Positions 33,556 through 56,035 of a DNA stretch of 64,000 nt are shown here, piece after piece. How positions within the stretch are numbered: position 1 is the first letter of the stretch; each line of letters begins with the position of its first letter. A program made the position numbers and the translations under genes. The DNA comes from Lagopus muta (Eukaryota > Chordata > Aves > Galliformes > Phasianidae): the NCBI RefSeq assembly GCF_023343835.1, contig NC_064438.1, positions 59,420,578 to 59,484,577 on the forward strand, given 5' to 3'. The notes under the pieces are model-generated. The model saw only the letters and a list, made by a program, of their open reading frames with translations. It had not been told where the DNA came from and did not search any database.

Positions 33556-33579
33556 TTTTTTTTTTTTTTTTTTTTTTAA
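33556..33579. repeat. Poly(T) run
   Basis: About 24 consecutive T. Confidence 0.95.
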
Positions 33580-34330: not shown

Positions 34331-34384
34331 ATCTCCTTGGGCTCTTTGTTGCAAACAACCTCGGGGGTTGTTGGCCCTGCCTGA

Positions 34385-34455
34385 GGGGAGGGCAGTGAGG
34401 GGTTGGAGGTGCATTATCCTCGAGTCCCTTCCAACCAGGGCCATTCTGTGCTTCT
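34385..34455 (+). mobile_element. CR1 3' end fragment
   Basis: Has 'gaggggttggaggtgcatta', 'tcgagtcccttccaaccagg' and 'gccattctgtg', a diverged CR1 terminus. Confidence 0.65.
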
Positions 34456-35894: not shown

Positions 35895-37799
35895 CACAGA
35901 ATCACAGAATTGTAGGGGTTGGAAGGGACCTCCAGAGATCATCGAGTCCAACCCCCCTGCCAAAGCAGGCTCCCTACACCAGGTAGCACAGGTAGGCATC
36001 CAGGCAGGTCTTGAACATCTCCAGAGAAGGAGACTCCACCACCTCCCTGGGCAGCCTGTTCCAGTGCTCCGTCACCTCACTGTAAAGAAGTTCTTGCGCA
36101 TGTTTGTGCGGAACTTCCTATGCTCCAGTTTCTGGCCGTTTCCCCTTGTCCTGTCTCCACTCACCACTGAAAAGAGTCCGGCCTCGCCATTCTGCCCCCC
36201 ACACCTTAGATATTTATAGACCTGGATCAGGTCCCCTCTCAGTCTCCTTTTCTCAAGGCTGAACAGACCCAGTTCTCTCAGCCTTTCCTCATAGGGGAGA
36301 TGCTCCAGGCCCTTCACCATCTTTGTGGCCCTCCGCTGGACTCTTTCCAAGAGATCCCTGTCTTTTTTGTACTGGGGAGCCCAGAACTGGACTCAGTGCT
36401 CCAGATGAGGTCTTACCAGGGCAGAGTAGAGGGGGAGGATCACCTCCTTTGACCTGCTGGCCACGCTCTTTTTAATGCACCCCAGTAAGCCATTGGCCTT
36501 TTTGGCCACAAGGGCACACTGCTGGCTCATGGCCAACCTGTCGTCCACCAGGACACCCAGGTCCCTTTCCGCAGAGCTCCCCTCCAGCAGGTCATCCCCC
36601 AACCTGTACTGGTGCATGCAATTATTCCTCCCCAGATGCAAGACTCTACACTTGCTTTTGTTAAACCTCATCCGGTTTCTTTCTGCCCAGCTCTCCAGCC
36701 TATCCAGGTCTTGCTGAATGGCAGCACAGCCTTCAGGCGTGTCAGCCAATCCTCCCAACTTCGTATCATCAGCAAACTTGCTGAGGGTGGCCATTATCCC
36801 CTCATCAAGGTCATTGATGAAGATGTTGAACAAGACCGGACCCAGCACAGACCCCTGAGGAACACCGCTAGTTACAGGCCTCCAACCAGACTCTGCACCA
36901 CCAACAACGACCCTCTGCGCTCTGCCAGTCAGCCAGTTCTCAACCCACCTCACTGTCCACTCATCTATCCCACACTTCCTCAGCTTTGTTATAAGGACGT
37001 CATGGGGGACAGTATCAAATGCCTTGCTGAAATCAAGGTAGACTACATCCACTGCTCTCCCCCTATCCACCCAGCCAGAGACAACATCATAGAAGGCTAC
37101 CGGGTTGGTCAAGCACGACCTCCCCCTTGTGAACCCGTGCTGACTACTCCTGATAATGTCCTCTTCTTCCAGTTGTCTGGAGATGACATCCAGTACAAGC
37201 TGTTCCATCACCTTTCCAGGGACAGAGGTGAGGCTGACTGGCCTATAATTGCCTGGCTCTTCCTTCTTGCCTTTTTTGAAGACTGGGGTGACGTTGGCTA
37301 TCTTCCAGTCTTCAGGCACCTTCCCCGTCTTCCAAGACTTCTCAAAGATGACCGAAAGTGGTTCAGCAATCACCTCTGCCAGCTCCTTCAGCACCCGTGG
37401 ATGAATCCCATCGGGTCCCATGGATTTCTGAACATTGATGTTGCCTAGGCGCTCCCGGACCACCTCTTCCCTGACAGAAGGGGGGTCTTCCATTCCCCAG
37501 ATCCTCTCACTAATCTCCAGGGTCTCAGATTCCCGAGGGGGAGCTTTTCCACTGAAGACAGAAGCAAAGAAGGCATTCAGTATCTCCGCCTTCTCAGCAT
37601 CCCCCGTTACCAGAACACCCCCGTCACTTAGCAGGGGAGCCACATTCTCCCTAGTCTTCCTTTTACTGTTAATGTACTTGAAAAAACCTTTTTTATTATG
37701 CTTTATCCCCTTTGCCAGATTTAATTCTAGGCGGGCTTTAGCCTTCCTTGTCGCATCCCTTTCATAAAACAAAACTTTCATAAGTCTTTTGTTCATAGG
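35895..37799 (-). mobile_element. 5'-truncated CR1 LINE, about 1.9 kb
   Basis: The longest CR1 copy in the window. The 3' tail (two ATTCTGTG units on the minus strand) lies at 35895, preceded by the 3' untranslated region and then the ORF2 reverse transcriptase frame. It stops abruptly near 37.8 kb, so the endonuclease part of ORF2, ORF1 and the 5' region are absent, as usual for CR1. The tail is identical to the short copy at 26.2 kb, indicating a relatively recent insertion. No target-site duplication was evident. Confidence 0.95.
36072..37796 (-). pseudogene. CR1 ORF2 reverse transcriptase, one internal stop
   Basis: A non-LTR retrotransposon reverse transcriptase frame. The first 467 codons (37796 down to 36393) carry the RT core in order: a '[11 protein letters not shown]' block (about residues 251-261), '[21 protein letters not shown]' up to residue 330 and the catalytic 'FADD' box (about 341-344), where the two Asp bind metal. 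A TGA at 36395-36393 falls where related copies suggest Cys. The same frame then continues without further stop to 36072 and encodes the conserved C-terminal tail ('[14 protein letters not shown]'). A single nonsense change thus separates this from an open RT frame. The N-terminal endonuclease is missing by 5' truncation, so the copy cannot be autonomous. Confidence 0.9.
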
Positions 37800-40760
37800 G
37801 AAACAAAAAGTCTCTGTAAATTTTTAAATAATTTTATTTAGGTACATCCTGGGCCATATCCCTTTATGGAGGCAGTGGAAGAGTGAGAACACTGAAGAAC
37901 TGAGGATAAAAAACATACATGGTATCAAAATTGCTTTCGGCTGTTACCAAAGTCGCTGCATTTTTGTATACTTTTAAATCGCACATGTACAAACTCTGCT
38001 TGTTTGGCTTGTTTTGCTCAGTCTTGCACTTTCTTACATGAGGAATGCAAGCCATCATCCGTTTAGGTAACGTTAGGAGTGGGTAGATTGAGAACCAAAG
38101 CAGTTGCCTTTGCACAGCATTTTGTCCATCGCTACTTGCAATGCCGGCCCACAGCAGCCTGTTGGACACAGCAGGGCGGCTCATTCAGTATTGCTGAAGT
38201 GCTCGTTAAACAGAACCACAGGCTGGAGTTCCTGAGCTGCCCTGTGGTAAGAGCAGTCACAGGAAGGGATTGAAACAGCAGCAGTGGCTGGCTATTGCCT
38301 CTGCTTAAAGCAGAGAATATTTTAAGATCAGTAGGTGAGTAAACTCTAACTCAGCCTGTTACATACCATGTTGTCAGCCCTGCAGAGCACAGCTTCCTGT
38401 TAGAAAACAGCACGTGCTGAAGAGTGAAAGGAATTACTGAGTTCTTTGAAGCAACTGGATGGGCTCCTTCTCACACCGATGTCAGTATGCTGTCAGCCCA
38501 TCGCAGGACAGCGTGCATGTCAAAAAGGGCTGGAATGCACAAAGAACCTCCAAGTGTCTACAACGCTGTTTTTCAGAAGTGTTTGAAATAGAAAAATAAA
38601 TTTCATTCCTGCTGATTTTATTTGGCACCTGCGGTTCTTACTGAAATCACTACAAAGCATCTGAAAAAGTTACTGCTTGTACCTCAGTGACATCTGCTTC
38701 CCTAAGCCCCAGTGCAGCTTCTCCCGAGGGCAATGCAGAGCAGCACTCCCAGAACAATTTCTCCTTGATACAGAAGTCATTGCTGTCGATGACGTCATTT
38801 TGTAACCCTTGCACTCATCCTGCTAACGCACCTGCAGATTTTCCACTCTAGGCAAAATAACTTCAACTTCTGCTGCTGGATTTGCTCCAGAGCCTCGGCA
38901 CAAAATTGCTGCTTCTGTAGTTGGTGCGAGTTACTTCTGCTACGGTAAAATATGCATGAGGCTGGATATTCTTTAAAAGCAAAACTTAACGAAGCAATTA
39001 TTTAACTAATTGAAATGGTTATATTGACATCTCTATGTAGCAGCTTTACTGCCACTCCATTAAGTCGCACTTTAACATAACGCAATTACTTCTGAAGCAG
39101 CACGGTATGGTTGTAGATATGCTTCATGGAATCACAGAAAGGAAAATAATAACAATGAAAGGCTTTATTGAGCCTTTTGGGGGATTTCTTTTTCAGGCAG
39201 TTCAGGCTCACAAGAGCTAAGCTAATTAAACATCAACCTTAATACAGAAAATATTTTTAATCAGTTACTTTGATATCAGTAAATGCTATGACAATTTTTT
39301 CCATTCTTATCCTGAAGAAAAATCAGTTAGCAAACCAATTAGCTTGTCAGAGATATAAAGCTCTTCTATGAGCATTGGTGTTTTTTTAACATTTTATGAA
39401 TCTGGGTGTGTATAGATAGATTCTAGAGCCTTTATTTGATATGCTTCTCATCCTTATCTTCACCTTCCCAAGGAAAAAAACAGACAATTGCGTTTTTGAA
39501 AATGAAGAATGGGATGGGAAAAATGACAACAATGAATTAATACTGGAGTACATTTTTCTAAAGTATATAAATGGTAATACTTGCTATGGTAACACAGTGC
39601 AGGAAAGCAAAAACCATCGTGAGGCTGACTGCTCGCAGTTAGGAGTTACTGATCCTTTTTCCAAACCTTACCAGTGAAACATTCCAACTTTAGCATCTGC
39701 ATTTCCATATCTTCTTTGTTTGTCCCACACGTCACACCATAGACTGTATGTCAAGTTGTGTCCATCAGAAAGCATGTCGATTCAGCTTTCTGAAGTCAAC
39801 CTAAATCTTCACATCAGTATCACCACTCCGATTTGGGAAATATTTTAATTACTCATGATAATCATCAATTAGATAAGAATTTCACTGATTCAAAGAAACG
39901 GGAGAAGTAGATCAGTATCATTATGTGTGCACAGGGTGCAAGTGCGCGCATACGTCCTCTGCAACAACAGTGTGACCAAGCATCCAGCTTTAACAGTGCA
40001 CCCCCCATCTGTAGAATATAGAAAATCAGGTAGCATAATACTCTGAAGCGTATAGAGAATATTTGAAGACCCTGGAGAAAGACATGCTATTTGCAAAATG
40101 CAAGAAGCACACACTGAGTTATGCCAGAGCGTGCCACCTCGTGAACTGAACTGCTTCAGCAATGTGGGGGCATTCCTGCTGCATTTTCACTGTCACAAGA
40201 TCCTCACTCAAGATCTTTCTACAACGGTATCTCTTCCATCTCTTATTTGTTTATGTCTATGAACATTGTGACCCCAATTCTTTCTAGCTGCTATTTCCAA
40301 GCATCCACTTGAGAATGCTGCCCTTTATCTTCAGATCTTTCCCTGAAGTGAAGCAGGACAGGTGTACAGATGTACAGTCATCAGCTGTGCCTGCAGCCTC
40401 ATTGAGCATTCACTGCCCAGCAGGAATGGAAGCATGGCTCTGGAGTCAGACTGCTGCCTGACTGCATGCAGCCATGCACTGCAACTGCACTGCCATTTGA
40501 ACACTAGGAAGGCTGTGTTCAGATAATGCAAGTTAGCCAAATACTACGCGTTTTCATCTGAGGAAAAGCGTGCAGTACTTCCCCAGTTTGTAGTGACTTG
40601 TTTTGAAAGCTGTAGTGACTTAAAAACCCTGCACGCTCACAGCCATCCCAGTGGCTCCACACAGTCGGATGCTACATATGAAATGCTGAAATACCTCACT
40701 TGAAAGATTCAGCACACACAGGAAAAGCCTCCTAACTGCCATTTCTGAATGTTCTGGGGG
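37800..40760. other. AT-rich non-coding stretch
   Basis: No gene or repeat family recognised. Confidence 0.4.
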
Positions 40761-41103
40761 TGTATGGGAACTGCTGAGCCACGGTTTCAACCACTGATTG
40801 AGCACCTGGGGTAAGGACCTGGTCAGCCATGGGAGCGTGGGTGAAGGCAGTTCAGCTGTGTGAGCAGAAGAGGTGGAGCCTGGCAGCACCTCTCTTAGAC
40901 TTCATTTAAGGGCTGACTGCTTCTGGGGAAGGAGCTCTGGTTGGAGATCCTTTTCTTGTGGAGTTTTCCTTGTGAGCCGAGGTGTTCAGAGGCAGGTGAG
41001 CACTTCTCCTTTTTCTTTGTAACGCTTTTCCATCACACTAGTTCCTTTGTCATTGCACCTGCTTTGTCACTGTTCCACTGTGTTGATTTTTCTGATTGTT
41101 ACA
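40761..41103 (+). mobile_element. Solo LTR, copy C
   Basis: Starts TGTATGGGAACTGCTGAGCC and ends TGATTGTTACA. It contains the family blocks 'ggtggagcctgg', 'catttaag' and 'ggaaggagctctgg'. Flanks GGGGG and GTGGG match at 4 of 5 positions, consistent with a mutated 5-bp target-site duplication. More diverged than A and D. Confidence 0.7.
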
Positions 41104-42989
41104 GTGGGATAAGTGATGACTACTGAGGGTAAAGATGGAAACGGAGACTTGGTGACAACTTGCAGGCAGCATTCCTATCTTGAACCCTATGCAAATAATG
41201 GGCACATTCCCCATTTCACAGGAAATGACTTTTGCTATCAACAGAAATGGATGGGCTGTTCCAGCTTTTCTGAGCCCACACAGAGGAACTCATTGATCTG
41301 CACACAGACTGCTCCAGCTTGTTTAGTAATGAAATTAGCAGCAATAGAAGCTGAGTCTAAGAGAGCCTGTCTGGGAACGTGTTGTGGACTCTGTGCATGG
41401 AGCCACGCTGTGGAGTGCTGCCCTGAGAGCAGCTCTGCTGTTCTGAGGGCTGCTGGGCAGACCGGAGCACCGTGAGGGCAAGATGAGGAATTGTCCCAAA
41501 GCCAGCAAGCATACACCTGCAGGCTGCTTATGGATGGTGTGCTCTCACAGGAATCCTGTTACCTCAGCAGGCACTGGAGAACGGATTCTTTTCTTATACC
41601 ACCAAGCTGTCCTCTTCAACGTGCTTTATTAACGATCTGAACTACATCACCATCCTGCTTAACTGGAGAGAGACTAGGAGAAACCTGAGGCACCATGTGG
41701 GTAAAAGAGAATGTTTGGATAAGGTATGTTTGTTCATATTTGTGGATGCTGTGTATCAGTAAAGCTAGTTCTGAAAAAGATGGAAAGGGGATGTGCTGTA
41801 GGCCGAGAGCCAGCAAACGTTACCAAGTGAAAGATAATGGTTTGGGTGAGGGTTGGGAACTAGCAAAAAAATTAGTAAAGTTTATTGTCTTTTCACAGCT
41901 TTACTCCAGCACCTCAATAGACCTCATTGAAATATGATAGACAGTGGCGGGATCAGGTGACATTATATGAAAATTAAACAAACCACAGGGGCAAGAAATG
42001 TTTTTCTATCTTTCTGTAAATGTCCTTGGTAAGGATCAGGTGCTGCTAAATAACATAAAACTCAGCCAGGCAGCTAATATGATCATCACTATTAGCAGAG
42101 GAACATGAATTCCAGGAGACAGTGTCAGCTGGAATAACATTTAATTTGTTGTGGGATTGTGAATGGGTTATTAAAAAGAGCAGGATCCTGCTGGATCCAG
42201 GATCCTGTTTCCTCTTCCATCTACCATGTTCTGTTCCACCTGCTGGGTGTTTGCTGCTGGACATTACACTTCTGAGTTTGTCAGTCCTTGGAGAATATTG
42301 CTCTTCTGCTGAATCTGAGGATGTCTGTAATTACTGACTAACCGTCCCTGGCTGAGGCCTGGGTTCTCACCAGCACAGTTCAAGCTGAAGTTCTGGTCAC
42401 CTTTCCCTTTGGTCCTGAATGGCGTGGTGCTAGGCTTGACCTGGTGTGAAATCTGAACTGTGGCAGTAAAGCCGATTTTCAAAGGAGGCTCCAACTTTGG
42501 GCTGATGCTGACAGCACAAAGTGCCATCATTCTCAGAGTACGTAGACACAATGAGGAAGCAAAATAGAAAACAGGAGTTGGGGCTTGTAGTCCAGTTTAG
42601 AGAGAAAGGCATTCTCAAGCACCTTCAGGACACTAGCAGCTCTGATAGTAGTCACTGCTCAGAGCAATTAGTCCTTCTGGGGTTCTCAACAAACTCAGGA
42701 ATTTGGGAACAGGATGGAGAACTCACTGCTCTAACAAATGGCATTCCTTTCAGCAGCCCCAGATGTACCTCGCCTTTGATTTTCCACATGCAGGAAAGCA
42801 GCCTCTCAGGTGCAACTTTGTCTGATCTTGCTTTTTTTGGGATGTTTAAGCATGGGATCTGTCCCTCTCTGTTCTTTGCACGATGTTGTTTCTCACAGCG
42901 AAAAGGAGAAAAAGAAGCAGCTCTCTGACATGACGATCCTGAACAAGCAAAAAGGAAGGTCGAAAGCTTTAAGCGAAGAGAAGAGAGGA
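41104..42989. other. Non-coding stretch
   Basis: No recognised gene. The plus frame 42521-42928 (135 codons) has no family resemblance. Confidence 0.4.
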
Positions 42990-43223
42990 AAAAAAAAAAA
43001 AAAGCTGGAAGCCTGTCGGCATCTTTTCTGCTTCCTTCAAATATGCAGCTTCTCGTGCTGCCCCTAGAGCACTCCTCTTGCCATAGAGGCTTCCGTGTGT
43101 TGGCGCAGTCTTTGCGATGTACCGCAGCATTGGGGCATCGTAGTTCTTTGTGGCGCTGGCCTTTGTGGACACGTGCATGGAGCAGTTTTTCTTGTTGTAG
43201 ACTAGCCCGGTGTAGTTGGGCAA
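42990..43223 (-). CDS. Unrecognised coding-like frame
   Basis: On the minus strand, codons from about 43218 read 'PNYTGLVYNKKNCSMHV' onward for some 70 residues. Third positions are strongly C/G (ccc aac tac acc, tac aac aag aaa aac tgc tcc), which stands out from the AT-rich surroundings and resembles real coding sequence. An acceptor-like 'ctctacag' lies just upstream on the minus strand (about 43243-43250), but this frame meets a stop between it and the conserved-looking part. The 3' side runs into a 16-base T-run. An overlapping minus frame (42652-43236) is also open. I do not recognise the protein. It may be an exon, a retrocopy remnant or chance. Confidence 0.25.
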
Positions 43224-43249
43224 GCTGCTGCCTCAAAGCAAACCTGTAG

Positions 43250-44432
43250 AGTTCATGGATTCAGTCATCCTCACAGTGTGTGACTGTGCGTCCAGGCAAA
43301 GAGAGGAATATCTGCTGTCAGCTTTCCCAGACAGCGCTGCTGGAGGAGAGCAGGCATGTCATGGCACAGGACACAGCCTTGCTGTTGCCTCAGTTTGGAT
43401 GGTTTCTAGAATTGAGGCTGTTCTCATGTGATGTCCCGTGCTAATTTGCAGATAAACTGTCCCTGCTTTCTGCTCATCCTGTTTCACGTTGGTCCTTTCA
43501 GTAATCTAGAAAGGAGGAATTAACTTTGTTCTTGAGGAAGTAACCCATTTTTATTTAGCCCATACTTTGTCTCTCAGGGCGGCACTGTTTTTGATCTAAT
43601 GCAAAAGCTTCCTAACATTCAGTCCAATCTAAACTCTCTGCTGTCCAGTAACAAGGATTGCCAACAGCCTGTGAGCTCAGCCGTTACAGCCCAGAGGTGG
43701 AGCTAACATGGAGACCTCGGGATTTTCAAAAAGGAACGAGAAGGCTGAGAATTGGGGGCTTTGTTCTGACATTTTTACGGGCTGTCCTACTTAAGGATTC
43801 TGCCTGTTTCGTTGGTTTGGCTGGAGCTGAGCAGCTCGGTGCTCACGACTTCAGTTCTTTGTGATACAGAGCAGTGCCAACTGCTGCCCAGACCAAACAC
43901 ATGTATTGGTGGAGGAGATTGCTCTATGCATTTTATTTTTTTCTTTAATGCTTTTGAAGTGTGAGAGTGGTATATGCCCTCAAACAGGTAACATCTAAAA
44001 TAAACTGATTTTCCTTTTTTCCTTGGAGCAGTGCTTCAGAGAAACGTGGATGCTTTCTTCCCTGCCGCTATGTTTCCCATCGCAGAATTCTAGGAAGGCT
44101 TCTGTTGTTGACTGCTTACTTTCTTATTTTCAGTACTGAAAGAAACACACCATTCTTTTTATGCTGCCTGTGTAGAATTCCCTTTGTTTCCTTTGTAGTT
44201 TTGAGCTGTGCTCTGGAACAGAACATACAGCTAGATCTAGAACAGTTGCCAAAGAGGAGTCTGCGGGCAAATGGTGCTGGATTCCCAGACAGAGGTCATA
44301 AAGCTCCTTGCTTCCTTGCGAAGTGTTCCTGTATTATTCTTACATATCTTTGTATGTTACTGCTGTGCTGAGACTTTTATGGCAAATCCATTCTCTGTTT
44401 CCCAGAGGTGATGCTGAGAAGCTCGCCTCACA
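43250..44432. other. Non-coding stretch
   Basis: No recognised gene or repeat. Composition begins to shift toward higher GC beyond it. Confidence 0.4.
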
Positions 44433-44699
44433 ATGACTTATGCAGACCTCTCGTTTCATGTTAATGCTTCCTTTGGGTCCAAAGAAGACCAACTCCTTGA
44501 AACCGTGCCTGGGAATCCCACTGTTGTTCAAATGGTTGAGCTGTGGTGCTGTGGTCAGAACGCCCTGCCGCAGATCCTGGCACTGGTTGTGAATGGAAGA
44601 ATTGACAGCAAATCACTCGATATCAAAATTGATCCGGTGGATATTTACAAGCCTCGGGCGACCCAGGTGGGATATCAGAGTTGTGAGGCCAGGTACTGA
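44433..44699 (+). CDS. Possible first exon or orphan frame with ITIM-like start
   Basis: An 88-codon frame starting 'MTYADLSF'. The TYADL pentapeptide resembles the ITIM (V/I/L/T-x-Y-x-x-L) at the N terminus of CD72-like and other type II lectin receptors. The rest shows no transmembrane segment, stalk or lectin domain, and no clear splice donor defines an exon end. It lies just upstream of the CpG-rich 45-46 kb block. Treat as an unassigned frame: the motif match is short enough to be chance. Confidence 0.15.
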   Translation: MTYADLSFHVNASFGSKEDQLLETVPGNPTVVQMVELWCCGQNALPQILALVVNGRIDSKSLDIKIDPVDIYKPRATQVGYQSCEARY

Positions 44700-45056
44700 A
44701 GTTGTTACTGCTATGTTTCTTCTAAGAGTTGCTCGGCTGTTTTGCATTGCTCTGTTAATCGTTCCAAGCCAGCCTTGGCTTCGCTGCGCTTTTTCATCAC
44801 CTCAGACGCTGGCTAAAAAAAAAAAAAAGAATAAGAGAAAGCAAGACAACATCATTTTGTTGGTTATTTACCTATTTACAGATATTCATAACATCTTAGC
44901 GCAGATTTGGTGGGTTTGCCGAAGTTTTTCTTCGTCTTATTTAGTTCACATTATTGTCTGTTTCCCCCCAATCCTCCCCCCAATCCAACTTTGCGCTTTT
45001 CCTCTGCCCTCATGAGAAAGAGAGAACAGAGCGCCAGAAACTGTGGCGCAGCTGCG

Positions 45057-45215
45057 CGTCAATCGGGTCGCAGTTGTTTCCGCGGTCTCTGCCGCCCTCA
45101 CGTGGCCAATAGGTGGAATTGTGGCCATGTACGTTTGGTGCCGCAGGACGCATGCGCGCAGGCACACGGAAGTGGTGTACGGACGTTCTCGTCGCTCTGC
45201 GCAGCAAATCCGCCG
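45057..45215 (+). promoter_or_regulatory. CpG-rich promoter-like module, left arm of an inverted repeat
   Basis: Reading plus: CGTCAAT (45057), TTTCCGCGGTCTCTGC (45077), a CCAAT box (45106-45110) preceded by CACGTG, an NRF1-like ACGCATGCGCG (about 45149), an ETS-like CGGAAGTG (45167) and CGCTCTGCGCAGC.AATCCGCCG ending at 45215. The same succession is found on the minus strand at 46396-46238 with the outer blocks at identical offsets. NRF1, NF-Y and ETS sites together are typical of TATA-less CpG-island promoters. The promoter role is inference, as no transcript start can be seen. Confidence 0.6.
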
Positions 45216-45448
45216 AACTTTGTTATACCTAGTCCTCTAAGTGGTAGTGCGCATGTGCCAAAGACTTTTAAAGAAGGATCAGTTTCTACGAAACCCTGCG
45301 GTGCGGGTGAGCAGCCAATTCCTGGACCACTGGCACAGAAATGCTTTCCTCTCGTCTAGACTGTGCTTCTTGTTTATTTTCTTGAGCAGTCTGACGAGCT
45401 GCCTCTACAGCAAACTATTCTGGCTCCCAGCGGACCTTGCGCCCGGTG

Positions 45449-45924
45449 CATGCATAATAAGGAGTCAAAAACAACGCATGCGTAGGTGCGTACACGAAAA
45501 TGCGCATGCGAAGTAATCTCTGCGCATTGCCGCATGCGCAATGCTTTCCAGAGACTTGCACATGCGCAGTGCTGTGCCAAGAGAAGCGCATGCGCACAGT
45601 AGTGCCGCGACAGGCGCATGCGTGGTGCCGTACCGGGACTGGCGCATGCGTAGTGAGGTTTTGAGGCTGGAACATGCGCAGTGCGTTCCAGACAATGGCA
45701 CATGCGCAATATGCTGCCAAGATCGGCACATGCGTAGTGCGGCCTTCAGATTCGCACATGCGCACTGCGCCACCGAGAGTGACGCTTGCGGATTGTGTTG
45801 TAGAATCCCGGGCATGCGCAGTGCACTGGCAGGACCGGCGCATGCGCAGTACGGTGTCAAGAGTTGCTCATGCGTAGTGAAGTGCCATTACTGGTGCGTG
45901 CGTAATCCTAGACTGCCAATCTCC
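45449..45924. repeat. 28-bp tandem array of NRF1-like sites, 17 units
   Basis: Cores fall at 45449, 45477, 45505, 45533, 45561, 45589, 45617, 45645, 45673, 45701, 45729, 45757, 45785, 45813, 45841, 45869 and 45897, that is, exactly every 28 bp. Fourteen units carry CATGCG. Unit 1 has CATGCA, unit 13 CTTGCG and unit 17 CGTGCG. Eight units have CATGCGCA, and units at 45589 and 45841 form the full palindrome GCGCATGCGC, the NRF1 consensus. Outside the core units diverge widely, with a weak consensus of 'agtgc', then 'cca', then 'ggc'. Long open frames on both strands through this block are a by-product of the repeat. Confidence 0.95.
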
Positions 45925-46237
45925 GAGCTGCTCCTTTCCACTGCCGCTGAGAGGGCTTTTAAACGGCTGGGGGACGGTGCAGGGCTGGGGCGGGAAGGGG
46001 ACGTCTGCTAGTTCATCGTGGCGGCGAGCAAATTGGATGCCACGAGGAGCTGAGGGGCAGCTGTGAGCCGAACCGGTCCGATCCCGGGTGGGTTCGGGCA
46101 TAAAAAGGCGGAAATAGACGACGGGCATCCCGGATTAGATGGGGAAGAATATTGCTAAGCTGGCGGTCCAAGAATCGACTGCTTGCCTGTACGGGCGCAC
46201 GTACGCTATTACCTGGAGGACTGATCACCATAGAGAG

Positions 46238-46396
46238 CGGCGGATTAGCTGCGCAGAGCGGTTAAAACGCCAGTTCCGGATTTGTAGGCGCATGCGTTAT
46301 GCTGCTGGCGGGACTCGGTGGCAGATAGCAGCAGTTCCGCGCATTGGCCACGAGGTGGCAGCAGAGACCGCGGAAAGAGCTCTGGCGGCATTGACG
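46238..46396 (-). promoter_or_regulatory. CpG-rich promoter-like module, right arm of the inverted repeat
   Basis: Minus-strand copy of the left arm: CGTCAAT (46396), TTTCCGCGGTCTCTGC (46376), CCAAT (46347), AACGCATGCGCC (about 46296), CCGGAACTGG (46279) and CGCTCTGCGCAGC.AATCCGCCG ending at 46238. Both arms span 139 bp from TTTCC to CCGCCG, with compensating 8-bp indels inside. The plus strand at about 46345-46364 reads GGCCACGAGGTGGCAGCAG, close to the CTCF core motif. The arms point toward each other across the 28-bp array. Confidence 0.6.
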
Positions 46397-47911
46397 GGGA
46401 CCCGCGACGCTGTCCTCGGCGATCCGTTCGGTCTTGTGATGACGGGGGAAGAACACGAAGTTAGAAGCAGGGGGAAAAGACAAAGAAAACAGAGGGAAAT
46501 TACTCCAGACCCTGGAAAGCCGTGCTAAGTGCTTATGAATATCTGTTTAAAAAAAAAAAGAAAAAAAATTTGTTTTTGTCAGTATGTGTTGCATTGTTTT
46601 TAAATATTCACATACCAAAACGTAACTGCCCAGCAAATTTAATGATAACGAAATAAAGCACATTGGCAGAAGGCACAGGGCCGTATTAATGCTTGCTCAA
46701 CCTCTGTCTTGTTCATATTTTAATGTATTTGTTTCCATGGGCCTTTCTTCAACTCCAGGTTTCATTTTCGGCTTTTTATTCTTTTCAATTCCATAAAATG
46801 GGTAGTTTTAGGCCCTAGCAGGTCTATGCAGGCAGAGACAAAGTTGCAGTTTTGATATTCGTGGGGATCTTTACATCCTTTCCACAAAGATTGACAAAAC
46901 CTAAGTTTCCGCAGTTCTCCACCTATGTTTACAGATGGAAAAAATTAATTCCCCTGCAGAGAAAGAATTGATGTCACAGCTGCCATTGTCACAGCTGCAA
47001 GATGGCCTGAGAGTTGTGCAGGTCCATCAGGCTCAGCTGCAGCTTTCCATTTACCCTTCTCTGGTCCTCCTGCAGCTGGACAGATCGCCCACAAGGGCAT
47101 GGGGTACGCAGACCCTCCCCGGCCAGCTGCAGCAGTCACTCCTGCCAGCACTCCCTTTCCCCCCGACCATTCCCATTTCGCAGGCTGGAGCCCTGTGTGG
47201 CAGAGGAGAGGAGAGGTGCAGGCAGAAGGAAAACAGGGTGCTGGGATTCCTCCAGCTCGCTGCCAGCTGTCTTCTCTGACATTTTTGGGGTGGGCAGGGG
47301 ACTGTGGGAGCACCCTCGAAGTGCTGGGCAGGAGGGAAGGAATTAAAGATGCAGCTGCAGGCAGCAGGCTCTGAGCTGAAGCAGTGCGGCCGGGCACTGT
47401 ACAGCTCACAGTCTGGGCACACAGAGGAAATTTGTCCAGCTGAGGGCTGCAGGGCTGTCCTTACCAAGCCCCATCCTACAGGTCTGCATGGACTGCACCA
47501 GTTGCTCGAGTTCTTCCCACTGCAGGAGCTCAGAAGCAACAGCAACCCTGGCCCGAGTAGGTAATGACAACACGCACACACAAATACACCCGATACAGAA
47601 TCTGGCATACTACAGTCCTCCCAGAGCTTGTTGCTGCTTTTTAGGCTGCTCTACAGCTATTCTGTCCATTCCCCTTCATTCCCCTATGTCTTGCCCCCTT
47701 TCTTCGCCCATTCCTTTTTCAGGTTTTCTCCTTTCTTTCCTCACTTCCTTCCCCATGCCTTTTGCCTGCAGTGGCCCCATGTTCTGCTGCTCTTCTCAGC
47801 TGACGATCCTTAAACCACACTTTTCAAAGACATGGGATCAGACTGCATACTATCACTGATTTTAAAACAGCCAAAGAAGTACAGTATTACGTATGGATAA
47901 CAAACTCCTAC
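46397..47911. other. GC-richer stretch without an assigned gene
   Basis: An A-rich tract lies at 46.54-46.57 kb. Plus frames at 46935-47279 and 47304-47564 and minus frames opposite them are open, but none has a recognisable domain. GTAATG after 47559 could be a donor, without a matching acceptor that I trust. Confidence 0.35.
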
Positions 47912-48052
47912 CTGCTGGAAGACCAATATCAGCTCCTCATCCTGGAGCATCACCATCGCCCCCAGGTTAGGCTGGCACTGCTCATCTGCCCCGCAGTGCT
48001 GCTTGAATGGCACTGGCACCTCCTGGCACAGCCTGCCACCTCCCTCTGTCAC
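47912..48052 (-). pseudogene. Integrin alpha-like exon, isolated
   Basis: On the minus strand the frame reads 'VPFKQHCGADEQCQPNL' and continues to 'LILVFQQ', followed at once by a GTAGGA donor (boundary 47912/47911). The P-F-x-x-x-C-G-x-D-x-x-C-x-x-x-L pattern is a hallmark of integrin alpha subunits, most like the leukocyte CD11-type chains, at the disulphide-bonded junction in the leg domains. The preceding residues ('GGGRLCQEV') also fit the family. The upstream acceptor is unclear: the sequence 5' of it is purine-rich and soon meets a stop, so 48052 is only an upper limit. No neighbouring integrin exon was found on either side. It may be one exon of a broken copy or of a gene whose other exons are too diverged to see. 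Confidence 0.5.
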
Positions 48053-48097
48053 ATCTACATGTCACCTCCTCTCACTGCTGTAGTTCTGACCCCACAC

Positions 48098-48185
48098 ATC
48101 AAACCCATGTCCCCCCATGTCCTCACGTGTCCCTGTGTCCCCATATGCCCTCTCATGTCCCCTCAAGTCCCCCCATGTCCCCTGC
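48098..48185. repeat. Imperfect CATGTCCCC minisatellite
   Basis: About eight imperfect copies of a 9-16 bp unit built on 'catgtcccc' and 'tgtcccc'. Confidence 0.75.
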
Positions 48186-48976
48186 CCCGCTTTGCTCCTT
48201 GCTGATGTCACTGTGGGGTTGAGGATGGGGACAGGGATGCCTGTGGGATGCGTGGAGCCCTGGGACGAGTTGATGGCCATGTGCAGTGGGGTGATGGTGC
48301 CCTCGGCGCACAGTTGTGACATTGGGGGGCGGGGGGGGGTAGTGCCCTGCAAGTGGGGGTCATTGCCCCCAGAATGGGGCTCGTGCCCCACGCACATGGG
48401 CAAGTTGTACGGGCAGTGCTTTCTGGAGATGATCTGTCTTTTCTCCAGATCTGCAGCGACTTCAGCAATCCCGCGTCGAGCCACAGCAGCAATGGGGCAC
48501 TGCAGCACGTCAGGGATCTCTGACTCGAGGAGCACAGGGCTGCACGAAGGACGCACTGCAGCCTCCCTGTTTCTGTGGGGTTTGGATTGCTGTTGGAGCC
48601 CAAAGGCCACACGCTGCCATACAGGCAGGTGCCAGGTTCACCCCTGAGGACACCAAACCCTCCAATAATGTCACAGCGGCCTTTAATTGCTGTGTGAGGA
48701 GATGACGTGCGTTTCTCCCTGGGGAGCCGTAAGCTGAGCCTGGCAGCTGGGCAGCCAGCACTCGCTCCATTGACGCCACTCATCTCAGCTCTTGTGCTGC
48801 ATGTGCAGCTTCTCAGCACCTCGCTGTATCAGCACTGAAATCTGTGCTCCCCTATCTATTAGAAATGTCACCAATTGCCATTGAGGACAGACTGGAAGCA
48901 AAATACGTGGGCCATCCTAGCTCACCCATCAATAAAGCTCCCCTTGCCAGACAGGCAGACCCAATTGGCTGCTGGG
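48186..48976. other. GC-rich stretch with G-run, no assigned gene
   Basis: Contains a G-rich tract 'ggggggcggggggggg' near 48.33 kb. A minus-strand frame (48610-48062) is open and includes 'TPLHMAI', reminiscent of an ankyrin repeat helix, but no complete 33-residue repeat can be traced. Confidence 0.35.
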
Positions 48977-49016
48977 TTTTTTTTTTTGTTTTTTTTTTTT
49001 GTTTGTTTGTTTTTTT
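48977..49016. repeat. T-rich / GTTT simple repeat
   Basis: T-runs interrupted by single G and two GTTT units, immediately 5' of LTR copy F. Confidence 0.9.
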
Positions 49017-49026
49017 CCTTCATGCC

Positions 49027-49265
49027 TTTATGGGAACTTTGAGATCACAGCCTGAAGCAGTGATGGAGCACCTGGTGAGGGGTGCAGCCCTGCCTGCACA
49101 GGTGGAAGCAACGCAGCTGTGGGAGCAGATGGGGCTGAGCCTGGCTCAAGCCCTCCCTCACCTCATCTGAGAGCTGGCAGGCCCACAGGCAGTGTCTCTT
49201 CTTAGTAACTCCCTCCCCCATGGGTGGTTGGGGGGCTCTGGTTCTTGGAAAGAGGTAAGCAATTC
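49027..49265 (+). mobile_element. Eroded LTR, copy F of the A-D family
   Basis: Shows 'tatgggaact', 'gcagtgatggagcacctggtgag', 'cacaggtggaagcaa', 'gagagctggcaggcc' and a GAGGTAAGC donor-like site, in the order of the family. Diverged and without clear target-site duplication. Confidence 0.55.
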
Positions 49266-49667
49266 TTTCTTCATTGTAGGGTTTTGGTCTTTCCCTTCCT
49301 GTGGGGATCCTAAGCTGGTTTAGAGTAACTCTATCTGCTTTGCCTGTCTTTATGATGCCCTTCAATTGTTTCCTGCGGGAAGTGAAGGGGGTATCTCCCT
49401 TTCTCTGAACTGGTAAAGCAGGGACTGATGTTCGTTCCTTTCTTTTGCTCTTATCTCATTTCTGGAATGCACCAATCAGCCCCAAGGTAACGCTGGTTGG
49501 CTGACTGTGAATTGCAACTCTGGAAATGCCTGGAGCTGATGCTCTTTTCCATAAAGGGATTCTGTGTTCTCCAGATCTTTGCGGCTCTTTTTAAACTCAA
49601 TACTTCTCATGAAGTCTCTGTTCCCTCTTTTGTGGGCACGTAATTAAATTATGTTCTGTGTCTCTTT
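49266..49667. other. Stretch between LTR copy F and an 89-bp direct repeat
   Basis: No gene recognised. It could be 3' sequence of LTR copy F or another eroded retroelement. Confidence 0.35.
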
Positions 49668-49756
49668 GGATCTCGTTCTGTTTTGCAGCTCAATGGGATT
49701 TAATGGTTTCTGGGGCTCCTCTAGTTAGTGGTTTAAGCACTGTGAAATCTGTGGAG
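49668..49756 (+). repeat. 89-bp perfect direct repeat, copy 1
   Basis: Identical over 89 bp to 50003-50091. It begins GGATCTCGTTCTG and ends AAATCTGTGGAG, with a 'ttctgttttgcag' acceptor-like block inside. Confidence 0.95.
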
Positions 49757-50002
49757 CAGGCAATGGAGCCCCTCATGAGCTCCCTGTTCATGCATCACTT
49801 GTATGCAGGTGGGTTTTGTGATGGCTGTTGGAAGCTCACTTACAGATGGAGTGGGGGTCACAAGGGGCTCCCTGGGGTCTGTTCTTCCAGCCCAATAAGC
49901 GATGTGACTGGTGATAGAGTGTGGTGCATCCATCAGGCTGGGACCTGAGCTTAAGAAAATCTCTGGGCCCCTGCGGCCCTTTTCTTCATCCTCACTTAGT
50001 GA

Positions 50003-50091
50003 GGATCTCGTTCTGTTTTGCAGCTCAATGGGATTTAATGGTTTCTGGGGCTCCTCTAGTTAGTGGTTTAAGCACTGTGAAATCTGTGGAG
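50003..50091 (+). repeat. 89-bp perfect direct repeat, copy 2
   Basis: Identical to 49668-49756, offset by 335 bp. Flanking bases differ on both sides, so the identical block is exactly bounded. Confidence 0.95.
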
Positions 50092-50179
50092 TCCTTCCAC
50101 CCCCTGACTCCCATTCAATAGCTAGCTCTGCAGCTATGGGACCCAGCAGTGTGATGAAACAAGGCCTCTGGTCTGCTGA

Positions 50180-50504
50180 TGTATGGGAACTACTGAGTCA
50201 CAGCCTGAACCTCTGATTGATCACCTGAGGCGAGCCATGAGCCAGCCAGAGGAGCACAGGTGAAGGCAATTCAGCTCTGCTGCCGGAAGGGGTGGAGCCA
50301 GGCTCCCCCCCTCCTAGACCTGTTTAAGAGCTGGCTCCCAGTGGGGGATGATCTCTTCTGGAGATCACCTCTTCTGGTGTTTTGTAGGTGAGCCCAGCAT
50401 AAGGGTAAGCCTTTCATTTATTCTCTGTTGTTATCATTGTCCACTTTGCCTAACTCTCTTGATTATATTGTGATTGTAACATCTTGATATCCATTGATTA
50501 TACA
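50180..50504 (+). mobile_element. Solo LTR, copy D
   Basis: 325 bp from TGTATGGGAACTACTGAG to TTATACA, flanked by the perfect 5-bp target-site duplication GCTGA (50175-50179 and 50505-50509). It has a 'tgtttaagagctggct' TATA-like region and an 'aagggtaagcc' donor-like site. Closest to copy A. This copy fixes the ends and insertion signature of the family. Confidence 0.9.
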
Positions 50505-50689
50505 GCTGAATACTGGGACTGCCATGGACAGGCTCTGTGGCTGATGTGGATCTTTCTGGTTGGACTGCTTGGTGAGTGTCCCCAGAGCTGCTGAGCACTC
50601 AGGCCTCCCTGCCTGCCCTGATTGCTCATCAGGCCATCAACATCCTTTGTGTTGCCATTCCTCATGGCATCAGCTGTCTCATACCATAG

Positions 50690-51160
50690 AGACATACCAT
50701 CTCACACCATAGACTCCTTGGAGTCAGAAGGAACCATTTGTGATGATCTAGTCCGACTCCCCACAAGGAACAGGGATGTTCACAGCTAGATCAGAGCCCG
50801 ATCCAACCTCATCTCGGAAGGGACAGGGCATCCAGCACATCTCTGGGCAACCTGTTCCACTGCCTCACCACCCTTACTGTAGAAGATATTTTCCTTATAT
50901 CTAACCTAATTTTTCTCTTGTTCTTTCCTTTTGCTCCAATTTAAGTATCGAAAGGCTGTTACCAGGTCACCTCAGAGCCTTCGCTTCTCCGGGCTGAACA
51001 GCCCCAGCTCTCTCAGCCTGTCCTTGGAGGAGAGCTGTTTGATCCCTTGGTTCTTTTTTTTTTTTTTTTTTTGTGGCCATCCTCTGATGTGATCCAACAG
51101 GTCCATGTCTCTTCTGCACTGAGGACTCTACATTCTGACCCAATCTCTAGATGTGGGATT
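50690..51160 (-). mobile_element. CR1 fragment (antisense) with poly(T) insertion
   Basis: Reverse-complement CR1 blocks: 'gatctagtccgactcccc', 'gggcaacctgttccactgcc', 'ccgggctgaacagccccagc', 'tctctcagcctgtcc' and 'gtggccatcctctg'. A run of about 19 T (51054-51072) interrupts it. It belongs to a different, more diverged subfamily from the 36-kb copy. Confidence 0.75.
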
Positions 51161-51644
51161 GTGCAGAAAATGGACTCAGATAAGGGAAGCCTCTTCACAA
51201 GTCCTACAGGAGCTGATGAGAACTTCAGAAATGAAGTGGGAGCTCCATACTCCGTGGCACCCTCCTTCTTCAGGGAAAGTAGAATGAATCAATCAGATGC
51301 TGAAGAAGCACTTGTCAAAATTGGTTTCAGAGACCAAATTACCATGGACAAAGTGTTTGCCTGTAGCCCTTGTCAGAATACGAACCACTCACAGAAAAGG
51401 CTTAGGAGTATCACCACACAAAGTGCTGTTTGGGTGGCCGTACTTGGGAATGGTGAGATGCCCGCTCTTGAAACCAAGGGTAAGTTTCTCCAGAACTGTG
51501 TACTCGGGTTGTCTGCTGCTCTGTTATCCGTTAAGGAATGTGGACTGTTGGCTCAAACTCCACCTCTGGAATTTCCAGTGCACTCATCCCGTGTTGGAGG
51601 CTGGTCCTAATACGTGCCTGGAAGGAATCAAGGCTTCAGCCCGA
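51161..51644. other. Non-coding stretch
   Basis: Plus frames 51047-51610 and 51297-51728 cross it, but no family is recognised. The second runs into CR1 sequence. Confidence 0.35.
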
Positions 51645-53412
51645 GTGGGATGGAATGGACCATTTCAGGTACTGCAGTGGGTGTCATCTTCCTTGACTTC
51701 AGCAATGTTTTGTTACAGTCTCCTGTGACATCCTGGTAATGAAGCTGAGAAAGTGTGGGATAGATGAGTGGATGATGAGGTGGGCTGAGAACTGGTTTAC
51801 TGGCTGAGCTCAGTGGTGGTGATCGGCGGCGCAGAGTGCGGCTGGAGAGCTGTGAGCGGCGGTGCTCCCGGGGGTTGGTGCTGGGTCTGGTTGTGAAGGG
51901 GAGATTGTGTTGTTGCTGTAGAAGCTTTGAGTATTTTCTGTATGTAGTACTGGCTTTACTGAACTTACAGCCCTCTTGTGGAAGAGCTGTTTGCCTTCCA
52001 CTAAGAAAGTTGCTGAGCAGAGTTAAAAAGTTAAAGATTCGGGGTGTTCTGATTGGGGTGGAATTGAGCCAGGCACAAAATAAGGCAAATATGCAGGGTG
52101 GAGAGAGAGAGGGAGCTCGGCACAGGACAGAACAAATGTGCTCACTCTTGGAAATACGGCCCTCGTATCTCCATGGAGAAGTAGAAAACATACCAAAAAG
52201 AGCAGGTTGGTAATGGACCTTATATGGAACTACATCATAGCAACAGTGTCGGGGAGATTGTGAGCCTAGACGCTCAACCAGTGAGCGCCAGGAGAGCATT
52301 GCCTGCGTCGGGCTCAGAGTACAGAACAGGATGAATTTCACTGACCGATGTGCAATTTTTCCCATATTAACAGGGAGCATGTGCCTGTTATTGAAATAAC
52401 GAATAAACTTTGCTGCTATCACTAAGATCCTTGCCTAAGCTGAAATTGGTGACTTTGAGTGTTTCTCACAAGGTCTTGTTCAATATCTTTGTCAATGACC
52501 TTGATGAGGGGATATGTTCACCCTTAGCAAGTGCACTGATGAGACAAAGCTGGGAGAGAAGTGGTTGGCACGCCAAGAGGCTGTGCTGCCATTCAGCAAG
52601 ATCTGGACAGGATGGAGAGCTGGGCAGAAACAAACCAGGTGAGGTGGAACAAAAGCAAGTGTAGAGTCTTGCACCTGGGAAGGAATAACTGCAAATATCA
52701 GTAAGCTTAGGATGTGACCGGCTGGAGAGGAGCTCTGCAGAGAAGGACCTGGGGGTGCTGGTGGACAACAGATTGGCCGTGAGCCGGCAGTGTGTCCTGC
52801 TGGCCAAGAAGACCAATGGCATCCTGGGGTGCTTTAAAAGGAGCGCGGCCAGCAGAGCAAGGGAGGTGATCCCCCCTCTCTGCTCTGCCCTGGTCAGGCC
52901 TCACCTGCAGTACTGCATCCAGTTCTGGGCTCCCTTCCTGGTACAGAAATGACAAGGATCTCCTGGAGAGAGTCCAACAGAAGGCCAGGAAGGTGATAAA
53001 GGGCCTGGAGCATCTCCTCAGTATGGAAAGGCTGGGGGACCTGAGTCTGTTCAGCCTTGAGGAAAGAAGACTGAGAGCAGATCTGATTAATGCTTATTAT
53101 TTGTTAAGTGTGGGAGTCCAAAGGACACGGCCAACCTCTTGTCAGTGATCTGTGGGGACAGGAGAAGGGGAAATGGCCACAAACTGCAGCACAGGAAGTT
53201 CTGCACCAAAATGCAAAGGATCTTCTTCACGGCGAGGATGATGGAGCGCTGGAACAGGCTGCCCAGGGAGGCTGTGGCTTCTCCTTGTCTGGAGATATTG
53301 GATACTGGACGCCCACCTGCGCAGCCTGCTGTAGGGAGCCCGTTTTGCAGGGACTTTAGACTCAATGATCACTGGGGGTCCCCTGCAACCCCAATTCTGT
53401 GGTTCTGTAATT
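51645..53412 (+). mobile_element. CR1 LINE, about 1.2 kb, interrupted by an LTR
   Basis: The left part (to 51891) contains the RT region ('gtcatcttccttgacttcag', 'tgtgggatagatgagtgg'). The right part resumes at 52471 ('ggtcttgttcaatatctt', 'aatgaccttgatgagggga') and continues through the RT C terminus to the tail 'ccaattctgtggttctgt' near 53.41 kb. Frames are broken by several shifts. The 579 bp between the two parts is an inserted LTR. Confidence 0.9.
51892..52470 (+). mobile_element. Solo LTR, 579 bp, nested in CR1
   Basis: Begins TGTGAAGGGG and ends GTTTCTCACA (TG...CA). CR1 sequence is interrupted exactly at these points: '..ctgggtctggt' before and 'aggtcttgttc..' after. Flanking TGGT / AGGT fits a mutated 4-bp target-site duplication. 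Near its 3' end it carries AATAAA (about 52.40 kb) followed by 'ctttgctgctatcac', as expected for a retroviral polyadenylation region. Not related to the A-F family or to the ERVL LTR. Confidence 0.8.
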
Positions 53413-53850
53413 TTAATCTTTGCTTCTTGTAGCGATGCAGTGTTTCAGAAGGGAGAAAAGCACGGCAGGCGTAAACTGGATTTCTGTGGTTGGTAAAGCT
53501 GTGCTGAGAAGTGGGCTGACACTTGGACCTGGAAATGTGTCTGCAGACTCTGCACCCAGAGGAATGACTTTTCCCTGCAGGTTGGGTTTGTCTAAGGTAG
53601 GTCACTGCTAGGTGAGCTTCTGCTTTAAAACATCAAGTTGTACAAATAAGGAAACTTCAAAAGCAAGATTGCCAATTCTTTTTTACATAGGTGATTTTTT
53701 CACGAGGAAAGATTTGAAATGCTGTTTGCTAATGGAAGATGGAGTGAGGAAAATCAAGTGAAAGGCACGCTGTGCATAGCCAGCACATAGCATCTGCACC
53801 GCTCTCCCCCTGCACAAAGGAGGAGCAGCTCAGCAAGCCTGGCCTGAGCC

Positions 53851-53904
53851 ATGGAAGGGAGCACACAAACATCTGGACCAACCCCAGCGGAGCTGCTTCT
53901 GCAG
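53851..53904 (+). CDS. Possible short first coding exon
   Basis: ATG in a good context (gagccATGg) opens 18 codons, 'MEGSTQTSGPTPAELLLQ', ending at CAG followed by GTTAGT. Position and strand would suit a 5' exon of the ARHGAP32-like gene, but its phase does not join directly to the 56036 exon. Low certainty. Confidence 0.15.
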
Positions 53905-54129
53905 GTTAGTTGTCTTCCGCTGTGTGTCTGCCATCCTGTTGCTCTGGGGTAGATTTGTTCATGTTCAGCTCATGGATCTGAGGTCTGAGTTTAAGGCTGT
54001 GGGCATCGTCCAGGAATTGGGGTAGGGTACGAGGCAAGGAAAACTGGGGTAAGAGGATGAGGTTTAGGACCAGGAACCTCTTCCATCACTATTAGCTCTT
54101 GCTGTTCCATTTTGGCTTAGGAATCCATG

Positions 54130-54222
54130 TGGGTGGCCCTGCTAGGCAGGGGGGTTGGAACTACATGATCCTTGGGGTCCCTTCCAACCCGGGTGATTCT
54201 GTGATTCTGTGTGATTCTGTGG
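54130..54222 (+). mobile_element. CR1 3' end fragment
   Basis: 'ggcaggggggttggaactac', 'ccttggggtcccttccaacc' and three 'gattctgtg' tail units. Confidence 0.85.
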
Positions 54223-54559
54223 GTTTTTTAATGAAGAACAGACTCGTTGTGCAGCTTGTGAGTGAATTCATTCACGCCTGTTAATTGACGTTCTTCTCTA
54301 CATGGAGCTGCAATTGCAATGGATGCTTGTGGTCTGATGTGCAGGCCCCTCTGATGTGCTCAGATGAGCCAAGTTTGCAAGGCCTGGCTCTCGGTTGGTG
54401 AGTTGTGCCCAAGGTCAGAGAGTTGACTCTTGTCGGCTTTGAGATGCATCTTCCAGTTGCACGCTGTGTTCTTCCTGTTGCGTTGAGCTCTTGAGCTCCA
54501 GCCCTAAGTGAGGATGCAAGCGCTACCGCAGAAGGGATGGTTGAGATGGGAAGTGCAGT

Positions 54560-55122
54560 GCAAAGGGCTGGAGACAGCAGGAGCAGAGATGTGATCATCC
54601 CCCTGTACTCAGCTCTGGTGAGTCCTCCCCTTGAGTGCTGTGTTCAGTTCTGGGTCCCTGACTACAAGAAGGACACTGAGTCCCCGAGATATTGCCAGAG
54701 AAGAGCAGTGAAGCTGTGAGGAGTGTAGAGCACCAGTCTCATGGGGAGCGGCTGGCTGAGAGAACTGGGATTATTTAGCCTGGAGAAGAGGAGGCTCAGG
54801 GCAGACCTCATCCCTCTCTACAATGAGCTGAATAGAGATCATGTCGAGGTGGGGGTCGTCCTCTTCTCCCGTGTAAGTAGCGATAGGACTGGGGGGAACG
54901 GCCTCAAGTTGCACGGGGGGAGATTGAGGCTGAATGTTAAGAAACACTTCTCCAAGGAGTGCCCAGGGAGGTGATGGAGTTATTGTCCCTGCAGGTGTTC
55001 AAGAAACGTTAGATGTGGCAGTGAGGGACGTGGCTTAGTGGGGAATATTGGTGGTAGGTGGACGGTTGGACTGGATGATCTTGGAGATCTTTTGCAAGCT
55101 TGCTAATTCTATGATTCTGTGA
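54560..55122 (+). mobile_element. CR1 fragment, about 0.56 kb
   Basis: 3' coding part and terminus: 'tgatcatccccctgtactc', 'ttcagttctgggtccctgac', 'ctggagaagaggaggctcag', 'gaaacacttctccaaggag', 'ggttggactggatgatcttg' and a tail 'attctatgattctgtg'. Broken frames. Confidence 0.85.
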
Positions 55123-56005
55123 AAGGCATCTGCTGGGCGAGTGCTTTGGTGGGTGAGCATCAGGCTGCTGGACAGCAGGCAGCTGTTGTCTGTGCAGACA
55201 GCCACATCCATGGGGAGTGGAGGCTTTTTCACCTTAGCCTTGTCTTTCATGTCTCACGTGCAGTAAGTCCTGTTGTTACACACAGCATCTTGGGGGCAAC
55301 CTTGATTTCTGCAGCCCCGAGCTTTGTGGCACGAGAGCTCTCGGCCATGCTTCTCCCTGTGATGTGTGACCGTATGGAAGGCCTCGCAGAAGCCTGGGTA
55401 GGTGATGGCAGTCGCTCCTCCTTTCCCCAGCGATGCTGGAAATAGCGTGGAACGGGACGGGGGGACATCCCAGCCGTGGGTTCCTCTCAGCAGGACTGAG
55501 CGGCTGTTCTGATCCTCGTGTTTGAACTTGAGGGAATCTGATGCTGAGTAGAGAAATGAGGGGCTTGTTCATAAAGAAGAAAAGACTGTGTCGCATCTTG
55601 TGGTGCAGGATGTTCTCCGAACTGCTGCTAACAGTGCCCAGGATGCTCCCTTTTTGATGGGGAGAGGTTTAGCAGGGATTTCTTAAATGAAAATAGTTTG
55701 TCGTGTAATTTCCTTTTCATCGACCTTTCATGCTACTTCTTGATAAGTTATCTTTGGTTTATGAATCAATATTTATTACTGAAGAGAATTGAAGAGAATA
55801 CGTATGCACCCTGCGCCTTCATCTGCACCAAGAATCTTCTGAACATCTTTGCACTGTTTCTTTTTGGCCCTGAGATGAAGCTGTGTGCAATATGGGCTTG
55901 GATGCATTTTCAGTCAGGTGCAGGACACGTAACGCTCATCTGAGTTGTCACGCTGACAAGAACAACACAGTAGCAAATTTTACAGGGTTGCGTGCTTTAC
56001 TTTAC

Positions 56006-56026
56006 TTTTTTTTTTTTTTTTTTTTT
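56006..56026. repeat. Poly(T) run before an exon acceptor
   Basis: About 21 T followed by CCCCTCCAG. It may serve as a very long polypyrimidine tract for the exon at 56036. Confidence 0.9.
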
Positions 56027-56035
56027 CCCCTCCAG

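Follow-up and report, generated by a model that had tools for sequence, protein, structure and literature searches.

Why does one short motif return 17 times at a single pitch in bird DNA when the bases between its copies have drifted far apart, and which protein, if any, might read it? The locus is a tandem array of 17 units of 28 bp at positions 45439-45914 on the plus strand of a 64-kb window, by which we mean the whole stretch of DNA that was analysed. The majority unit is GAGACTGGCGCATGCGCAGTGCGGTGCC; its positions 11-16 form the core CATGCG, and the first core base falls at 45449 + 28k throughout the 17 units. Fourteen cores read CATGCG (units 1-11 and 13-15), the longest run being 11 consecutive units at the 28-bp pitch, and the deviant cores are CATGCA in unit 0, CTTGCG in unit 12, and CGTGCG in unit 16. 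Over a longer span, eight cores match CATGCGCA and two match GCGCATGCGC (45586 and 45838). A prior sequence-only reading had reported these 17 cores, their exact pitch and coordinates, and the same tallies for the three core forms, all of which proved correct on recount. Autocorrelation exceeded 0.33 only at lags of 28, 56, 84, and 112 among the lags of 10-119 examined, and Tandem Repeats Finder called only 2.4 copies at the locus. The array is confirmed as real and beyond chance.

We found no longer, off-register array when a model of the unit was searched beyond these limits with nhmmer, the best match agreeing at no more than 17 of 28 positions. A literature search of titles and abstract openings likewise returned no description of such an array. 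As a background measure, two collections from a library of prokaryotic, viral, plasmid, phage, or metagenomic sequence were scanned for four consecutive CATGCG motifs at 28-bp pitch, which gave 0 stretches in viral_contigs and 45 in genome_contigs. One of the contigs scanned, from an Acidimicrobiia genome (VFYY01000196.1, 2268-2471), carries CATGCG at this pitch on both strands with four matches, apparently a separate bacterial tandem array.

The spacers between the cores hold a record of the age of the array. Outside columns -2 to +7 (counted from the first core base as 0), mean identity between units was 0.427 across 136 pairs vs. 0.257 in a shuffled control (s.d. 0.009, maximum 0.302, 2000 within-unit shuffles), and the units therefore descend from one ancestral unit. 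The strong spacer divergence that had been described was thus borne out, yet the copies remain related beyond their shared motif, as the members of a minisatellite are. Pairwise identity was 0.41-0.47 at lags of 1-10 units and lower at lags of 11-16, where pairs are few. The most similar of the 136 pairs was only 0.79 identical over 28 bp, so the near-identical neighbouring copies of an active VNTR-type repeat were not found. The array is a very old, star-like minisatellite without recent turnover. Its total tree length came to ~137-197 substitutions depending on the model and columns used, an estimate that is rough at such divergence.

Against this background of drift, the core stands out. 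Columns C0, T2, G3, and C4 are identical in 17 of 17 units, G5 in 16, and A1 in 15, while 16 of the remaining 22 unit columns have majority counts of only 8-11. The best window of six columns holds 99 of 102 majority letters, vs. maxima of 92 in 20,000 neutral equal-rate runs on a star tree and 95 in 10,000 runs on a maximum-likelihood tree. The core was thus kept beyond all 30,000 neutral simulations. That it changed so much more slowly than its surroundings suggests, without proving, that the copies have been retained for a purpose.

One such purpose would be protein coding, with a reading frame that forbids indels. Long open stretches do overlap the array, reaching 150 amino acids on the minus strand and 164 on the plus strand. 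However, each of the six frames holds at least one stop across the array (1, 5, and 9 on the plus strand; 2, 3, and 1 on the minus strand), on which ground a coding repeat was rejected. Nor was the array depleted of stops relative to column shuffles (P = 0.41 and 0.21), and a 28-bp period cycles its core through every one of the three frames. The odds of a coding repeat are therefore vanishingly small.

A better candidate for the reader of the core is the transcription factor NRF1, whose consensus is RCGCANGCGY. This consensus occurs seven times in 44750-46500, vs. 0.135 expected and a maximum of two in 200 Markov sequences. Among the 17 units, five fit it exactly, eight with one mismatch, and four with two. 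According to the binding study PMC10810270, an NRF1 site comprises two GCGC half-sites flanking AT and is bound with sub- to low-micromolar affinity, arginine R206 stacks on the central T, and the optimum for the dimer is GCGCATGCGC, with a Kd of 0.31 uM; Kd values for variants are given in its Table 2. By these values, measured on oligonucleotides whose flanks were unlike those of the array units, eight of the 17 cores match sites with a Kd of 0.31-2.11 uM, a ninth equals an oligonucleotide that bound weakly, and the other eight are unmeasured. Two cores are the optimal palindrome GCGCATGCGC (unit 5, 45586-45595, and unit 14, 45838-45847; 0.31 uM), as the sequence-only reading had noted in calling them full NRF1 palindromes. 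Next come GCACATGCGC (0.66 uM) in unit 4 at 45558-45567 on the plus strand and also at 45698 (unit 9) and 45754 (unit 11), GCGCATGCGT (1.27 uM by palindromy) in unit 6 at 45614-45623 on the plus strand and also at 45642 (unit 7), and GCGCATGCGA in unit 2 at 45502 (2.11 uM). Unit 1 at 45474 (ACGCATGCGT) fits the consensus exactly, yet it equals the oligonucleotide with measured weak binding. To speak of 17 NRF1-like sites was therefore too strong, and the 17 cannot be taken as equal in strength.

The pattern of change within the cores also resembles what NRF1 would tolerate, at least in part. The central T is present in 17 of 17 cores, which fits the stacking of R206. Of the inner-left changes, G to A at -1 is the most frequent (five units) and has the mildest loss among those measured in PMC10810270. 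The commonest core change overall, C to T at +6 (seven units), costs ~4-fold by the same table, which counts against NRF1, as does the weak binding of the unit 1 sequence. Across the 20 of 25 core changes that could be used, there was a bias to mild changes (p = 0.003 vs. uniform choice among eight measured types). We give this bias little weight because core changes were mostly transitions (19 to 7 transversions in the core vs. 54 to 63 outside, p = 0.017) and because the units share ancestry. Still, the central T and the mild inner-left change support a fit of part of the core pattern to NRF1, which is the best candidate for the reader, by inference rather than demonstration.

The surroundings of the array point in the same direction. 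It lies within a CpG island at 44851-46600 (passing thresholds of GC 0.5 and observed/expected CpG 0.6) that is probably a promoter region. In 500-bp windows, observed/expected CpG was 0.93-1.15 across 44751-46750 and 0.15-0.65 in the other windows reported within 43001-49250. Four CpG-island stretches occur in the 64 kb (12451-13350, 13851-15000, 44851-46600, and 63001-63600), and the island with the array has the highest CpG value among them. Outside the array, the island contains three free-standing NRF1-type sites, namely ACGCATGCGC at 45148-45157 (1.27 uM), GCGCATGTGC at 45249-45258 (0.66 uM by palindromy), and GCGCATGCGT at 46288-46297 (1.27 uM by palindromy), all rated by PMC10810270. 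Their flanks are unrelated to the unit, resembling it no more than background does. Three such measured-type sites compare with 0.03 expected, and none of 5000 Markov sequences reached three. The island thus holds more sites than chance would supply, as an NRF1 homotypic cluster does. That the core matters, and not the repeat, is best argued from these independent sites. The remaining 62,250 bp hold one site of a type measured in that study, GTGCATGCGC at 14944, which sits in another of the CpG-island-like stretches, those within 12451-15000.

Could the array instead be a functionless relic, a neutral minisatellite in a CpG island where uneven mutation mimics conservation of the core? CpG islands are as a rule unmethylated in the germline, and CpG loss in such an island would be slow. 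The edge units 0 and 16 lack a CATGCG core, and the CpG of the left half-site has been lost in 9 of the 17 units and retained in 8, as might be expected of decay. However, the CpG of the right half-site was retained in 16 of 17 units. Because the left CpG decayed while the right was kept in the same sites, CpG content or base composition by itself explains the pattern poorly. Equal-rate neutral runs also never reached the observed core, and independent NRF1-type sites lie close by in the island. We therefore regard a neutral relic as very unlikely.

The inequality of the two arms raises a different alternative. Decay has gone further in the left half-site, where the inner CpG has 10 changes vs. 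1 in the right half-site (p = 0.012, for a comparison picked post hoc), whereas at the outer position the left has 3 changes vs. 9 in the right. Two columns beyond the decamer are conserved as well, A+7 in 16 of the 17 units and T+9 in 15. Neither the unequal arms nor these two flanking columns are predicted by a symmetric dimer. They could reflect an asymmetric partner, shared ancestry of the variants, or chance. If the core were selected for another, asymmetric protein reading approximately CATGCGYAnT, NRF1 binding would be incidental, and the invariant C0, T2, G3, and C4, the conserved A+7 and T+9, and a left palindrome arm that keeps far fewer CpGs than the right would follow. By contrast, the free-standing island sites, whose flanks are unrelated to the unit, match NRF1 sites measured in PMC10810270, and the central AT and mild inner-left change fit NRF1 by the same source. 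In addition, no candidate factor was found, motif-library ranking not being part of the search. An asymmetric reader that replaces NRF1 is therefore unlikely, in our estimation. The earlier proposal that selection had kept spacing and core was thus borne out in part, through the conserved core and the improbable net spacing. A symmetric NRF1 constraint was not supported.

Taken together, we favor a reading with a probability of about 0.58, in which an old tandem array with selected NRF1-type cores forms a homotypic cluster in a CpG-island promoter. An ancestral NRF1-type site in such a promoter would have been multiplied tandemly long ago as 28-bp units, after which the spacers would have drifted while purifying selection held an NRF1-type core in most units. 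Whenever the island is unmethylated, NRF1 dimers may then bind seven or eight good cores and the others more weakly. Because 14 bp of DNA are enough for NRF1 binding, 28 bp would leave room at each unit. The array and the three free-standing sites would together keep the promoter open and active. The promoter role, the activation, and tandem duplication at an NRF1-bound site as the origin of the array are parts of this account that we infer from sequence.

Whether the 28-bp spacing was itself selected, beyond selection on the core, is a separate question. All 16 intervals between cores are exactly 28 bp, and MAFFT alignments of the units stayed gap-free under each of three gap costs. At an assumed 0.03-0.1 indels per substitution, 4.1-19.7 indels would be expected in the array, and seeing none has a Poisson probability of 0.017 or less, which falls below 1e-5 at the rate of 0.1. 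Zero net indels against this expectation support a constraint on net length. Other repeats in the window gave 49 gap events per ~689 substitutions, or 0.071 indels per substitution, from 11 non-independent pairwise alignments, two of which were of identical copies.

The earlier description of the array as indel-free and without slip thus holds for net length, but the spacers are less uniform than it implied. Scored against a leave-one-out profile, 12 of the 34 half-spacers fitted better when shifted by 1-3 bases, most strongly the right half-spacer of unit 16 (+3, past the last core) and the right of unit 1 with the left of unit 2 (+1 each). We also fitted compensated indels, allowing one insertion and one equal deletion per spacer, and 4 of the 16 spacers gave uncorrected p < 0.05 (1-2, 0.020; 5-6, 0.040; 8-9, 0.042; 4-5, 0.047). 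Across all 16 spacers, this signal was non-significant after correction (Bonferroni 0.32, Fisher 0.089), and we dropped compensating indels as proof of selected spacing. If real, they would strengthen the case, but they are only a hint.

Selection on the pitch, whether through ordered dimers or a nucleosome-excluding lattice, would account for the 16 exact intervals where several indels were expected and where other repeats in the window have accumulated them. It would also explain why units 1 and 2, which have lost spacer similarity (6/17 and 4/17 vs. a background mean of 4.5), still have their cores in register, and the four spacers that individually fit compensated indels would agree with it. 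However, that last signal is the one lost on correction, and the indel control comes from non-independent alignments. The free-standing sites are off register as well (offsets 10, 27, and 2). Moreover, DNA has a helical repeat of 10.5 bp per turn, so 28 bp spans ~2.67 turns and neighbouring units would face different ways. Selected spacing is therefore possible but doubtful. Stronger still would be a promoter lattice where long-lasting selection kept the NRF1-type half-site as well as the 28-bp pitch, compensating indels included, and where NRF1, as dimers or paired with some asymmetric protein, binds in an ordered, methylation-gated row; this combination we consider distinctly unlikely.

Tandem arrays of binding sites are known in other settings. 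Imprinted genes such as Peg3 contain tandem YY1-site arrays, and as there, each unit of our array would carry one factor's core near a CpG-rich promoter, although those arrays use a different factor and belong to mammalian imprinting. A closer architectural parallel is found in human TERRA promoters, where PMC6600276 describes tandemly repeated 29-bp units that lie in CpG islands and each contain a pair of putative NRF1 sites, every site departing from the consensus at two positions. In that report, 5-aza-dC raised the NRF1 ChIP signal 2.3-fold beside the repeats, and NRF1 depletion blunted the demethylation-dependent rise in TERRA. The bird array shares with the repeats described there a similar unit length, a CpG island, and NRF1-type cores, a likeness of architecture and not of homology. 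Unlike them, its units are strongly diverged around a conserved core. The TERRA repeats are also subtelomeric, adjoin 61- and 37-bp repeats, and drive TERRA (PMC6600276), whereas periods of 61 or 37 bp were absent from the 12 Tandem Repeats Finder rows of our window and the 64 kb contain no telomeric doublets.

A plausible origin is suggested by the human germline. As described in PMC8559717, NRF1 sites in human spermatogonia are among the most insertion-prone, and insertions of 5-20 bp at them often duplicate the motif and build clusters. Like those clusters, the array groups sites for one factor in regulatory DNA, and motif-duplicating insertions of this kind could have started it. However, the human insertions reported are shorter than 28 bp, which counts against this origin, and the bird array differs from them in its 28-bp unit, its 17 copies, and its single pitch. 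PMC6600276 and PMC8559717 thus offer precedents for the architecture and for a plausible origin. What would be new is the age of the array, the way its spacers drifted while the cores of 17 parallel copies stayed fixed, and perhaps also the unchanging pitch.

With one site repeated 17 times at a single locus, and with drift in the spacers but not in cores or pitch, the array offers a natural record of a transcription factor's requirements. If NRF1 reads it, the array would allow tests of whether clustered CpG-containing sites shield an island from methylation, whether the spacing between NRF1 dimers matters, and whether germline duplication of NRF1 sites builds lasting arrays beyond human, in other vertebrates.

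To place the island in its neighbourhood, we surveyed the rest of the window, where G+C varies between 38% and 55% in 2-kb steps. Pfam searches of six frames in 15001-29999, 30001-44999, 46001-60999, and 61001-64000 (E up to 0.01 or 0.1 by region, with 1-15000 and 45000-46000 left out) detected two domains and no others, one of a reverse transcriptase and one of a RhoGAP. The RhoGAP exons at 63055-63168 and 63427-63564 on the plus strand are the nearest recognised protein-coding sequence downstream of the island, and their best solved relative is RICS (ARHGAP32; 3iug). A RhoGAP-related-looking segment also occurs at about 62414 on the plus strand. The gene is probably of the ARHGAP32/33 type. 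A solved-structure search with one frame of 46003-60999 gave no match. Five splice-donor-like matches fall in 44701-46600, two of them inside the array, and the best by a donor matrix is CGG/GTGAGC at 45304-45312 on the plus strand, a speculative assignment. Use of this donor would make the array part of a first intron, which is equally speculative. A structured RNA or tRNA was also considered and rejected, as nothing in the 64 kb matched Rfam at gathering score or was recognised as a tRNA.

The reverse transcriptase (PF00078) lies on the minus strand within an open stretch at 36393-37823 and is presumably of CR1-like type, which gives the window the look of bird DNA. That stretch and 51674-53408 are two related but oppositely oriented CR1-like copies whose identity is ~77-80% across two pieces. 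Four further dispersed repeats (2174-2501, 3019-3344, 40750-40982, and 50169-50504) are related to one another at 72-87% identity. Two identical pairs are much younger than the other repeats in the window, one of 102 bp in inverted orientation (26204-26305 and 35893-35994) and one of 89 bp in direct orientation (49668-49756 and 50003-50091).
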